A DNA stretch of 12,464 nucleotides from Rhodanobacter sp. (GTDB lineage Bacteria; Pseudomonadota; Gammaproteobacteria; Xanthomonadales; Rhodanobacteraceae). The stretch covers positions 1 through 12,464 of the forward strand of contig JAPHUU010000024.1 in assembly GCA_026193555.1 (NCBI GenBank), given 5' to 3'. Both the position numbers and the translations under genes were made by a program. The notes under the pieces were generated by a model. The model searched no databases. It was given only the letters and a program-made list of their open reading frames with translations, and was not told where the DNA came from. Shown piece by piece: positions 1 through 5,485 of the stretch (positions are counted from its first letter, which is position 1; every line of letters begins with the position of its first letter).

Positions 1-90
1 CTGAGATGCCCTTGCCTTCCGCTAATCCTTCCCCTTGCCGGGTGGATAGAGGACTTTCACCTCCAAGCAGGTGCGCCCTGCCGGGCGCAC
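1..90 (-). mobile_element. 5' end of a group II (IIC-like) intron, truncated by window edge
   Basis: Read on the minus strand from base 90 downwards, the sequence starts with GTGCG, the group II intron 5' consensus. It forms a perfect 8-bp hairpin (GTGCGCCC, loop GGCA, GGGCGCAC; bases 90-71). It continues with GGAGGTGAAAGTCCTC (about 65-50) and, near the edge, GGATTAGC followed by GCAAGGGCATC. As I recall it, the Oceanobacillus iheyensis group IIC intron has the same order: GTGTGCCCGGCATGGGTGCA, then GGGTGAGAGTCCC, then GTTAGCC and GCAAGGGTGTC. The intron start is one base after the T8 tract of a rho-independent terminator, matching the known insertion habit of group IIC introns. Only the start of domain I is present. 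The rest of the ribozyme and any reverse transcriptase/maturase gene would lie to the left, outside the window. The intron reading is confident; the IIC class rests on sequence recall and the insertion site. Confidence 0.8.
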
Positions 91-91
91 C

Positions 92-122
92 AAAAAAAAC
101 CGGCCGCGCGAGGCGGCCGGTT
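92..122 (-). terminator. Rho-independent terminator of the first Ala-rich lipoprotein gene
   Basis: On the minus strand, 22 bases after the stop codon at 145, a perfect 10-bp stem (AACCGGCCGC / GCGGCCGGTT, bases 98-107 and 113-122, 5-base loop) is followed by a run of eight T (99-92, the first two being stem bases). This is a textbook intrinsic terminator. It appears to have served as the landing site for the group II intron whose first base is position 90. Confidence 0.9.
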
Positions 123-144
123 TCTTGTCTACATACGAAGGGGA

Positions 145-417
145 TTACTGACCCTTCATTGCATCCGAGGCTGGAGCGGTGGAAGCTGCAGCAGGAGCGG
201 CTGCAGTGGAAGCCGGGGCAGCAGCCGTGGAAGCCGGAGCAGCCATCGCAGGAGCAGCCGCGGTTGCGGCCGCTGCAGCCTGCTGGGCTGTATCAGCAGC
301 CTGCTGAGCGGTGTCAGCCGACTTCTGAGCGTCCTGCGCGGAATCCTGCGCGCCGTTGCTGCAAGCCGCCAACAGCGCGACGAGCGCGGAGGCGAGAAGG
401 GTACGCGTAAATTTCAT
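145..417 (-). CDS. Small alanine-rich lipoprotein (paralogue 1)
   Basis: The product has 90 residues. The start is the ATG at 417, which has an AGGAG ribosome site seven bases upstream (425-429); the frame is open further upstream to 507, but that stretch has no signal peptide. Residues 1-19 are a lipoprotein signal peptide (basic MKFTR, a hydrophobic core, lipobox LLAAC with Cys19), so the mature protein is probably acylated. Ser at +2 suggests outer-membrane sorting. Mature residues about 30-50 contain heptads of the ADTAQQA type, suggesting an alanine-zipper helix as in Lpp/OprI-type lipoproteins. The C-terminal half is Ala/Pro/Ser/Thr with a repeated PASTAAA unit and looks disordered. The end MKGQ lacks the terminal lysine by which Lpp attaches to peptidoglycan. 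The gene lies downstream of a paralogue on the same strand and ends at a strong terminator. Function unknown; a structural envelope role is an inference. Confidence 0.85.
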   Translation of the reverse strand: MKFTRTLLASALVALLAACSNGAQDSAQDAQKSADTAQQAADTAQQAAAAATAAAPAMAAPASTAAAPASTAAAPAAASTAPASDAMKGQ

Positions 418-669
418 GGTGGATCTCCTATGCCGTGGAATGCCGTATGGCCGAGTATTAATAACGCTTTCGTTGAAATTTCGCCAGTTCTTTCCCTGAA
501 ACTTCACTGTTTGCCTTGAATCAGTTTAGCCGGCTGTCATTAACGGGACTTTCATGATTGCTTCGGCCGGATCGGGACTCATTTGTGTTTCCCCGCCGGT
601 GAGGTTCGCCGTCGCAAATAAAACGGCTGCACGAGGCGGTCAGTCCTGTCAGTTTGCAGATGCGCGAAC

Positions 670-1074
670 TCAGTGCCCGTTCACGGCGTCCTGCTTGGCG
701 TCCTTGGCATTGCTCGCGGCTGCCTTGGCTGCATCCGCGGCCTTCTTAGCCATGCCGGCAGCGTTGGAAGCGGCCTGGATCGCCTGGTCCACAGCCGTCG
801 AGCTGGGGGCCGGTGAAGCAGAGGCGGCGGTCGCTGCCTGCTGTGCCTGATCCGACGCCATGCTGGCAGCGTCGGCCGCCATCCTGGCCTGATCAGCTGC
901 CTGTTCGGTGGCAGTGGTCGGTGTCTGGGCGGCAGTCTGCTGCGCCGTGTCGGCGGCATGCTTGGCTGCGTCGGCTGATTTCTGGGCATCTTGCGCGGAA
1001 TCCTGGGCGCCGTTGCTGCAGGCTGCCAAGAGTGCGACCAGCGCACAGGCGAACAAGGTATGCGTAAATTTCAT
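670..1074 (-). CDS. Alanine-rich lipoprotein (paralogue 2)
   Basis: The product has 134 residues, starting at the ATG at 1074. The ribosome site is weak (TGGA about 11 bases upstream), unlike the AGGAG of its paralogue. The signal peptide has lipobox LLAAC with Cys19. Residues 11-35 (ALVALLAACSNGAQDSAQDA and on) are almost identical to those of the neighbouring lipoprotein at 145-417, which proves duplication. The mature part is an almost uninterrupted Ala-rich helical stretch (about residues 25-82), then a short Ser/Pro linker (SASPAPSS, about 85-92), then a second Ala/Lys-rich helix to the end (about 93-131), again suggesting a two-segment alanine coiled coil. The C-terminus is NGH, with no Lpp-type terminal lysine. 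No clear terminator follows, so read-through into the downstream paralogue is possible. Family and function are not recognised beyond Ala-rich, Lpp-like lipoprotein. Confidence 0.85.
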   Translation of the reverse strand: MKFTHTLFACALVALLAACSNGAQDSAQDAQKSADAAKHAADTAQQTAAQTPTTATEQAADQARMAADAASMASDQAQQAATAASASPAPSSTAVDQAIQAASNAAGMAKKAADAAKAAASNAKDAKQDAVNGH

Positions 1075-2517: not shown

Positions 2518-2659
2518 ATGGGTCGGTTCTGCGTTGGGCGGCACATTTTTCACCTCTCCGGGGGTTGTGCGTTGTGCGATGATTTGGGCCGGGGATGGGG
2601 CTGGGCTGCCCGTACGGGTACTTGGCCATCGGCAAGGATCGAACTGCGCGGGGTGGGCC

Positions 2660-5485
2660 ATGAAGAAAATACTGAATACGGGGTTTCGCTATCGTGAAGC
2701 GGCGCTGCTGGCTGCCGCCGCGCTTGGTTTGAGTGCTTGCGGTGGTGGTGGTTCCAGCAACGTGAAGCCCACTCCCGCCGCACCGGCACCGGCACCCGCA
2801 CCAGCCCCTGCGCCGCCCCCGGCACAGCCGCCGCTGGACGCGCAGCTGGCCATCACCAACACCTATGCCGCCCACAGCCAGGGCTTCACTGGCGCCGGGG
2901 TCATCATCGGCGTGGTGGACAGCGGCATCATGCGCAATCACCCGACGCTGAGCGGACGTGTCACCAAGGAGTTGATCTACGTCGACCCCACCACCAACAA
3001 TACCGCGATCGACGACGTGGTCGGCCATGGCACCTGGGTGTCGGAGATCGCCGCGGGCACGCCACTGGGTGATTTTGCCGGGGGCATTGCACCGGGCGCG
3101 GATCTGGTCTCGGCGCGGGTCATCAGTGACGTTTCACCGCCCAGTGACAGCACCGGCAAGGGCAACCTGGTGACAAGCGCCGATCCGCTGGGACAGATCA
3201 ACACCGACCTGATCGCCAATGGCGTCAAGGTGATGAACAATTCCTGGGGTGGCCTGTACTGGGATGCCAGTGCCACGGCGACAACCCAGAGTTTCCACGA
3301 TGCCTACAGCCCGTTCATCAACACCTGGGGCGGGCTGGTGGTGTTTGCTGCCGGCAATGAATCGGCCGCCAATCCCAGCGACGTGGCGGCGCTGCCCAAC
3401 CGCGCGGCGGATCTGGCAAAAGGCTGGCTTGCCGTGGTGGCGGTGGACAGCAACAACCCGACCCACTTGGCCAGCTATTCGAATGCCTGCGGCATCGCGA
3501 TGAACTACTGCCTGGCGGCACCCGGCGACGTGATCGTCAGCGGCAAGGACGACACCGCCACCAGTCTGAGCTACTGGATCGTGGCGGGAACCTCGCTGGC
3601 GGCGCCACAGGTGTCCGGCGCAGCGGCGCTGGTATGGCAGGCCTATCCGTATTTCACCAACGACCTGGTGCGGCAGACCCTGCTGGGCACGGCCCAGGAT
3701 CTGGGGGCGCCGGGGGTGGATCCGGTCTTCGGCTACGGCGAGCTGGATGTCGGCAAGGCAGTGAATGGTCCGGCGCAGTTCAACTGGGGCGATGTCACTG
3801 TCAGCTTCACGGGCAGTTCCAGCTGGAACAACCCGATCTCCGGTGCCGGGGGTCTGATCAAGCAGGGCACCGGCACACTCAACCTCACGCAGCCATCGAC
3901 TTACGCCGGCCTGACCCAGGTGCAGGCCGGCACGCTGACGGCCAGCTCGCTGGCCTCCAGTGTCAGCATCAGCGGCGGTGCCACCTTGAGCGGCACCCAG
4001 ACCATCGGCGGCAGCGTGACCAATGCCGGCGTACTGGTGGCAAGCGGCAGTGATGTCACGGTGGCGGGAAACTATGCCCAGCAAGGCAGCGGCCGGCTGG
4101 CGGTGTCCCTCGGCTCGGCGTTGAATGTCACCGGTACGGCCAGCCTGACCGGGGGCGACCTGTACGTGATCGGCACGAATTCGGGCTATGTGGTCAGCTC
4201 GCACACCGGCGTGCTGAGCGCCAATGGTGGCCTCACCGGCACGTTCTCTGCGCTCAACACCGCCTCCAACGTGCTGCTCACCGCAACACTCAACTACGAC
4301 GCCAACAATGCCTGGCTGAACGTGACGCAGGTCAGCGTCACGGCGGTGCAGGGAGCCTCCTACACCGCCGCCTCGTATGGTGCTGCACAGCGCGTGCAGA
4401 GCGCCTTCGGGCAGATCAATACGCAACTGATGCAGCCTGCGACGAGCACGGCGACTCCGGTCAGCAGCGGATTCATCAGCGCCGCCGCCAACCTGCAGCA
4501 GTCGCCCAGCGTGGCAACGGTGCAGAATTCGCTGCAGAGCCTCTCCGGCCAGCTGCATGCGGCCAGCGCGCAGATGACCCTGGACGGGATCGACGCCGGC
4601 ACGCGCGCGTTGTCGGAGCGCTTCGATCAGCTGCTCAGCTCGCCCGCACAATCACTCGCCGTCGGCGGCTGGGCGCAGACGCTCGGCTATCAGGGCAGCA
4701 TGGCGCGCAGCGGCTACGGCAACGTCGGTTACGCACTCAACGGATGGATGGTCGGCGCGGACCAGCGACTGGGTGGCAACGGCGTGTTCGGTTATGCGCT
4801 GAGCCAGAGCCAGGGCCGGGGTCTGCTGGCAGCCACCGCCGACCAGGGCAGTAACCGTGCGGTCGAGGGCATGCTCTATGCCGGCCTGATCCGGGGGCCG
4901 TGGTACGCCATGGGCCGGTTCGGTACCGGCAGCTACTACGGCAACATGCGACGTCATGTGCAGCTCGGCGGCACGTTCAGTGACGTGTCCAGCAGCAGCA
5001 ACGGTCGCTATGGCGTCGCCTATGGCGAAAGCGGTTATCAGCTGGCACTGGGCCGCTGGCGGCTGACCCCGTACCTCAACATGCAGTACGTGGATGTCCG
5101 CAATGACGGCTTCCGGGAGCAGGGCGCCGGCGGTTTCGGTCTGCAGGCGCCGCCGCAGAACATCGAGCGCTGGCAGGCCGGCGTCGGCGTGCGCGCGGCG
5201 CAGAGCTGGACGTTCGACAACGGCCGCAAGCTGACCGTGCAGGCGCACCTGCTGCGGCAGCAGGCGTTCGCGATGCATGGCGACGTGCTCGATGCGAGCT
5301 TTACCGGTCTGCAGCAATATGCGCCCGTCGGCGGCATCGGCCTGTCGCGCTACGGCACCGTCGCCGGCATGCGTCTGGACTGGAACCTGTCACCGCGCTC
5401 CGCGGTGCAGCTCGGCTACAACTATTTCTCCGGGCAGTACCAGCGCTCGGGCATGGGCATGGTCAGCTACCGGCTGGCGTTCTGA
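2660..5485 (+). CDS. Subtilisin-like autotransporter serine protease with lipoprotein signal (SphB1/NalP type)
   Basis: The product has 941 residues; I chose the ATG at 2660, which begins MKKILNTGF, because a signal peptide follows directly. Residues 1-27 end in lipobox LSAC (Cys27) with Gly at +2. A GGGGSS stretch and a Pro/Ala-repeat linker (about 36-58) follow. The S8 subtilase domain spans about 65-370: catalytic Asp87 (GVVDSG), His123 (GHGTW), oxyanion Asn233 (AAGNES), Ser312 (GTSLAAP). Cys277 and Cys284 probably form a disulfide. About 395-430 is an autotransporter-associated beta-strand repeat (GLIKQGTGTLNL, then TYAGLTQVQAGTL), continuing as a beta-helix-like stalk to about 560. A helical linker (about 575-660) precedes the C-terminal beta-barrel (about 665-941), which ends in Phe as BAM substrates do. 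Lipid-anchored autotransporter proteases such as Bordetella SphB1 and Neisseria NalP cut other surface proteins at the outer membrane. The substrate here is unknown. The gene converges on isovaleryl-CoA dehydrogenase. Confidence 0.92.
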   Translation: MKKILNTGFRYREAALLAAAALGLSACGGGGSSNVKPTPAAPAPAPAPAPAPPPAQPPLDAQLAITNTYAAHSQGFTGAGVIIGVVDSGIMRNHPTLSGRVTKELIYVDPTTNNTAIDDVVGHGTWVSEIAAGTPLGDFAGGIAPGADLVSARVISDVSPPSDSTGKGNLVTSADPLGQINTDLIANGVKVMNNSWGGLYWDASATATTQSFHDAYSPFINTWGGLVVFAAGNESAANPSDVAALPNRAADLAKGWLAVVAVDSNNPTHLASYSNACGIAMNYCLAAPGDVIVSGKDDTATSLSYWIVAGTSLAAPQVSGAAALVWQAYPYFTNDLVRQTLLGTAQDLGAPGVDPVFGYGELDVGKAVNGPAQFNWGDVTVSFTGSSSWNNPISGAGGLIKQGTGTLNLTQPSTYAGLTQVQAGTLTASSLASSVSISGGATLSGTQTIGGSVTNAGVLVASGSDVTVAGNYAQQGSGRLAVSLGSALNVTGTASLTGGDLYVIGTNSGYVVSSHTGVLSANGGLTGTFSALNTASNVLLTATLNYDANNAWLNVTQVSVTAVQGASYTAASYGAAQRVQSAFGQINTQLMQPATSTATPVSSGFISAAANLQQSPSVATVQNSLQSLSGQLHAASAQMTLDGIDAGTRALSERFDQLLSSPAQSLAVGGWAQTLGYQGSMARSGYGNVGYALNGWMVGADQRLGGNGVFGYALSQSQGRGLLAATADQGSNRAVEGMLYAGLIRGPWYAMGRFGTGSYYGNMRRHVQLGGTFSDVSSSSNGRYGVAYGESGYQLALGRWRLTPYLNMQYVDVRNDGFREQGAGGFGLQAPPQNIERWQAGVGVRAAQSWTFDNGRKLTVQAHLLRQQAFAMHGDVLDASFTGLQQYAPVGGIGLSRYGTVAGMRLDWNLSPRSAVQLGYNYFSGQYQRSGMGMVSYRLAF

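Follow-up and report, generated by a model that had tools for sequence, protein, structure and literature searches.

The window, a 12,464-nucleotide stretch that is the whole of contig C323 in a 465-contig, 89.9% complete Rhodanobacter metagenome genome, opens inside a mobile element. We are confident that its first nucleotides are the 5′ end of a group IIC intron, reverse-spliced behind the T tail of a lipoprotein gene terminator, and that this is one of four copies in the genome and most likely ORF-less. The 5′ end of the intron and its junction with the terminator are present in the window, domains V and VI lie on a partner contig, the empty site is found in relatives, and the genome carries several copies. 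The features of the region are the following.

1..90, minus strand: first 90 nt of a group IIC intron (blastn matches to the starts of ltrA-bearing introns; four 5′ ends in the same genome; empty site in relatives)
71..90, minus strand: first domain I hairpin GTGCGCCC-GGCA-GGGCGCAC, with 8 perfect pairs and the loop GGCA (sequence and fold)
91..91, minus strand: last base of the 5′ exon, the G between T8 and the intron (alignment with relatives)
92..124, minus strand: intrinsic terminator of the lipoprotein gene with its T8 tail at 99..92, the insertion target (fold; aligns with the terminators of nine relatives)
145..417, minus strand: small alanine-rich lipoprotein gene, MKFTRTLLASALVALLAAC... 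(list of open reading frames; lipobox read by eye)

Read along the minus strand, the lipoprotein gene (417..145) is followed by the terminator (124..92), the G at 91 and then GTGCGCCCGGCAGGGCGCAC..., which continues to the contig end at position 1. The T8 tract occupies 99..92, and GTGCGCCC lies immediately beyond the single G, at 90..83. The intron begins with GTGCG at 90, the start of domain I, and the contig breaks within the intron. The perfect first hairpin pointed out in the preliminary description is indeed there, its 8 pairs running from 90 to 71. The terminator stem is formed by the arms 124..113 and 107..96, with a folding energy of –22.4 kcal/mol (z = –4.3) that none of 200 shuffled sequences equalled. 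A consensus terminator scan of 1..700 gave no sites, and so the fold and the alignment with relatives were used to define the terminator instead; the scan probably missed it because of pairing between the T tail and the A-tract that precedes the stem. Over the 90 nt of intron the fold is only modestly better than in shuffled sequences (z = –1.4, with 17 of 200 as good), and here it is therefore homology that carries the evidence. No Pfam family matches the lipoprotein frame (148–414). A second lipoprotein gene lies at 670–1074 on the minus strand, 78% identical over 174 bases to that at 145–417 and apparently a tandem paralogue. Further into the window, the plus strand holds a 983-aa open frame (2534–5485) whose translation, read by eye, has a subtilisin-like and autotransporter-like look.

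In a blastn search the 90 nt match the start of an ltrA-bearing intron on plasmid pAZKH of Azoarcus sp. KH32C (L005; E = 1e-23, 90.6% identity over 91% of the query), and the 5′ end of an intron on the Paraburkholderia plasmid PPGU16_p2 (L006) is 86.6% identical to the window. Similar DNA is found in Paraburkholderia, Caballeronia, Polaromonas, Mycetohabitans, Cupriavidus, Pseudomonas and others, with 307 plasmid records in all. A group II reverse transcriptase (RT) is annotated ∼400 nt downstream in two of the four plasmid loci fetched (L005 and L006), and none is annotated in the other two (L007 and L008). The full-length RT-bearing relatives measure 1878 nt (L005) and 1869 nt (L006). The best PDB match of the L005 RT is the GsI-IIC RT (E = 8e-143), and the RTs of both loci carry RVT_1 and GIIM domains while HNH is absent. 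We file the family as class C on the match of the L005 RT, the domain make-up lacking HNH and the terminator site.

The preliminary description had also looked to the Rfam intron models, and these answer on one side of the insertion. RF00029 (domains V–VI) matches the partner contig C384; no intron family matches the window, which contains too little of RF02001, a domain I model. At the gathering threshold no Rfam model matches the window, and none of the nine matches found in 1..600 at relaxed E-values of up to 1 is to an intron family. In L005, L006, L007, L008 and L032 the match to RF02001 begins ∼85 nt past the common start, so that hardly any of that model falls within the window. Since domain I models start further in, a domain I search of the window alone could not refute an intron. 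RF02001 is thus matched only in the relatives, and the window itself contributes GTGCG and the 90-nt homology.

The other copies in the genome complete the picture. The assembly contains four intron 5′ ends (on C323, C302, C381 and C209) and four 3′ ends (on C384, C327, C220 and C309), and all eight sit at contig ends, as a collapsed repeat would leave them. C323 and C302 agree at all 90 nt, and C381 differs at one base; the three further copies are 98–99% alike where both are visible, C209 showing only its first 44 intron bases. Each further 5′ end follows a tract of six to eight T behind a hairpin. RF00029 is above gathering in all four 3′ ends. On C384, assembled as a molecule separate from the window, it lies at the contig start (L061, 26–96), and the intron ends there in ...CCCGAT, of the AY type. 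Beyond domains V–VI this contig continues with a carboxylase gene.

C384 is the other side of the insertion in the window, with the terminator as target, as follows from the match of its flank to the DNA behind the lipoprotein gene and from the alignment of the junction in relatives. A 661-base query comprising the lipoprotein gene and terminator gave some match in 45 of 45 genomes of the genus, and loci from 11 relatives were retained. For nine of the 11, the 3′ flank on C384 matches the DNA behind the lipoprotein gene at 85–88%, from 53–64 nt past the intron end; this match is mostly carboxylase coding sequence, and the junction itself was aligned separately. The remaining two (L094 and L097, the latter cut short by its contig) have no flank match, and the empty site is not shown in them. 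With the intron removed our site reads T8-G-GCC; the relatives read T8-C-GCC in five of nine and T8-C-GTC in one, with larger differences in the other three. Downstream, the carboxylase start codon is the same in our genome and in the aligned relatives. The distance from T8 to this codon is 64 nt in our genome with the intron removed, compared with 86–181 nt in the six relatives measured. The preliminary description had proposed a group IIC intron 5′ end behind the lipoprotein terminator, and this is upheld by the blastn matches to ltrA introns, the T8-G junction, the empty site and the three further copies. It had suggested looking for a domain V, an AY 3′ end and strains with an empty terminator site; the first two are found on C384 (RF00029 above gathering, and the ...CCCGAT end), and the third in 9 of the 11 relatives fetched.

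How general is the intron and its choice of site? The 5′ end is present in 8 of 60 genomes (our own and relatives), all eight in the genus, and the 3′ end in 9 of the 45 genus genomes. Allowing up to two mismatches, the hairpin occurs in 12 of the 45, a few of these being chance palindromes, and a reversed-pattern control gave two matches. Across the order the 5′ end is found in at least 17 of 398 genomes and at least 13 of 98 genera, lower bounds given that few candidates were scored. The intron start is also present in G010 of the same genus and in a Rhodanobacter metagenome genome (SCRF01000044.1). A run of at least four T within 16 nt upstream accompanies 34 of 41 distinct hairpin sites; this count covers the loci fetched at that stage (not all matches had loci), including the four plasmid loci of other genera, and leaves out reversed palindromes and sites with fewer than 40 bases upstream. 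Among the seven sites lacking such a run, four (L130, L131, the minus strand of L133, and L138) look like chance matches or palindromes, and the other three (L026, L118 and L129) have three T and strong folds. One site that is counted as having the T run, L024, has a weak upstream fold (–4.5).

Does the intron encode a protein? The preliminary description placed the intron body together with its RT beyond the left edge of the window. Part of the body is seen as domains V–VI on C384; the RT is not borne out, as none is assembled and the sequence leading into domain V is that of ORF-less copies. The middle of every copy in the genome is missing from the assembly, leaving length and ORF content not visible. 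No RT was found on searching our own assembly with RVT_1 (PF00078), or on searching the genomes G014, G016 and G019 with the same model; metagenome assemblies tend to lose repeats, so that these negative results are weak evidence. The bases before domain V, readable in three of our four 3′ ends, are GTCGACAG before GAACCGCC in all three, i.e. GACAG before domain V. GACAG or GACGG is found in this position in four loci with no RT upstream (L013, L021, L045 and L165) and in L166, a chimera that combines GACAG with a foreign RT piece. In seven others (L005, L006, L072, L082, L083, L085 and L086) the C-terminus of the RT runs into T before GAACCGCC. There are exceptions to this rule: L183 has T before GAACCGCC with no RT detected, L171 has C with an RT piece, and L053 has neither, with another sequence before domain V and no RT. 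The bases upstream of GACAG in our genome differ from those of the known ORF-less copies. Judged in this way, and with their middle unassembled, the copies in our genome are probably ORF-less.

Complete ORF-less elements occur in related genomes. G019 contains one of 627 nt (L032, 3478–4104), with domains I and V and no RT. A second complete copy, of 628 nt and 92.2% identical to L032, is found in G611 (L185, 2248–2875), which belongs to another genus of the family, and hence we claim no restriction to the genus. The version in G016 (L037) is complete at 693 nt and 73.6% identical to L032. G014 has this ORF-less 3′ part three times (125, 125 and 232 nt), on C101, C10 and C41, each time next to a different flank; the 3′ ends on C101 and C10 are at contig ends, and that on C41 lies inside its contig but is cut at its 5′ side. 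The 187-nt middle of the ORF-less element has no match in plasmids and two partial matches in a phage collection (30 and 18% of the query). It gave none in 369 genomes of the class, an empty answer that is uninformative as at most two candidates per genome were scored among the matches listed.

The copy in the window might instead be an ordinary RT-bearing group IIC intron of ∼1.9 kb, its body unassembled as a repeat. We consider this unlikely, even though the closest full-length relatives (L005 and L006) are RT-bearing, the genome G066 of the genus has a related RT close to the end of a contig, and a repeat of this size could drop out of a 90% complete assembly in 465 contigs. Against it stand the lack of RVT_1 in our own assembly and the ORF-less-type bases before domain V in the three readable copies. 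In the 45 genomes of the genus there are 25 RVT_1 matches. Twenty of these had loci and were compared with the class C RTs of L005 and L006, the five lacking a locus falling outside the comparison. Only one (L151, in G066) reaches 64% identity; 15 others lie at 24–41%, and four have no match. L147, L150 and L152 are group II RTs, 30–36% identical to those of class C. A piece of a class C RT in G067 (61% over 151 residues) is absent from the RVT_1 search results. On contig C230 of G066 (L121) there is a class C intron RT whose usual YADD motif reads YAGD; its frame is broken before the C-terminus, and it lies near the contig end.

The family also includes shrunken and composite forms. Remnants with both ends measure 69 nt (L039), 110 nt (L076), 166 nt (L087), 181 nt (L031), 263 nt (L072) and 336 nt (L128); the 263-nt remnant keeps a C-terminal piece of the RT, and L192, whose 3′ end is uncertain, was left out of this list. 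The 110-nt remnant (3300–3409, in a Rhodanobacter sp. SulCav metagenome genome) contains only the start of domain I and the end of domain VI, and lies after a terminator. Other copies consist of a 5′ end only (e.g. L049, L050, L118 and L120), some 5′ pieces running into unrelated DNA, or of a 3′ part only (L045, L053, L083 and L085). An 826-nt chimera lies after a terminator in G469, a single-contig genome of another genus (L187, 523–1348). It has a class C intron start and a domain V–VI end, and between them a fragment of another group II RT, 34–41% identical to class C RTs, which contains a stop and ends abruptly. We considered the short remnants as mobile mini-introns and rejected this, because no identical short form was seen at two sites; decay after insertion or faulty insertion is the simpler reading.

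Relics of this kind are frequent in both genus and family, and the window could accordingly hold another, either a 5′ piece or an internally deleted remnant that has no function. This we regard as improbable. The copies in our genome are near-identical, and the four 5′ ends are equal in number to the four 3′ ends with domains V–VI, which points to recent multiplication of a single element.

It is very unlikely that intron sequence was wrongly joined to a contig end during assembly. All eight intron ends in our genome are at contig ends, as an artefact would have it, but the same type of junction is found inside contigs of relatives (L031, L032, L072 and L185), and the two halves of the site in the window fit the empty site in relatives. 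That the sequence is a second terminator hairpin or some other repeat family, as its first 20 nt forming a GC-rich hairpin directly after a T tail and the short solo hairpins after other terminators (L118 and L120) might suggest, can be dismissed, given that the similarity to ltrA-bearing introns extends well beyond the hairpin and that domains V–VI lie at the other side of the site.

We therefore return to a probably ORF-less group IIC intron. In the mechanism we propose, the intron entered the DNA by reverse splicing, immediately downstream of the T tail of the intrinsic terminator of the lipoprotein gene. The insertion lies between this gene and one for an acyl-CoA carboxylase-like protein, both on the same strand, and the remainder of the copy is the unassembled part between C323 and C384. 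An ORF-less RNA would be expected to fold into domains I–VI, to splice and to reverse-splice, and its movement would depend on a class C RT from elsewhere. More tentatively, Rhodanobacter and its kin may harbour a class C lineage that has permanently lost its RT and multiplies in trans, in different species and genera (L032, L185, L037, G014 and our own copies); internal jumps of the RT at insertion might then yield miniatures with exact ends, down to 69 nt, and chimeras like L187. If the ORF-less state is true, these bacteria would offer a natural example of introns that lost their RT and then spread, together with a graded series of shrunken introns.

How does this compare with known systems? 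The window presumably shares a GTGYG start and the order of the early domain I motifs with the group IIC intron of Oceanobacillus iheyensis, a Firmicute intron. The ORF-less introns of Thermosynechococcus elongatus are of a different intron class from class C. The plasmid introns of L005 and L006 have the same 5′ end as the copy in the window, the same kind of domain V–VI and the same place directly after a terminator; they encode an RT, whereas in the genome of the window no RT is assembled and domain V is preceded by bases of the ORF-less type. Insertion of class C introns behind intrinsic terminators is already established (PMC8919778 and PMC4424553), and the less usual part, new here, is a class C family that is present in several copies and apparently ORF-less. 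According to a 2015 review (PMC4424553), ORF-less group II introns are rare in bacteria and nearly always occur together with related introns whose proteins may act in trans. In T. elongatus many ORF-less copies share one ORF deletion, and a single deletion followed by spread via the protein of another intron was proposed (PMC2882425). There, RT-encoding introns are present in the same genome and movement was tested, whereas in the genome of the window none is assembled and movement is a prediction. At the small end of the series, the group III introns of Euglena, as outlined in PMC4424553, are ∼90–120 nt long and sometimes have only domain I and VI motifs, a make-up similar to that of the 110-nt L076; those introns lie in genes and are excised, while L076 lies after a terminator with no sign of splicing.
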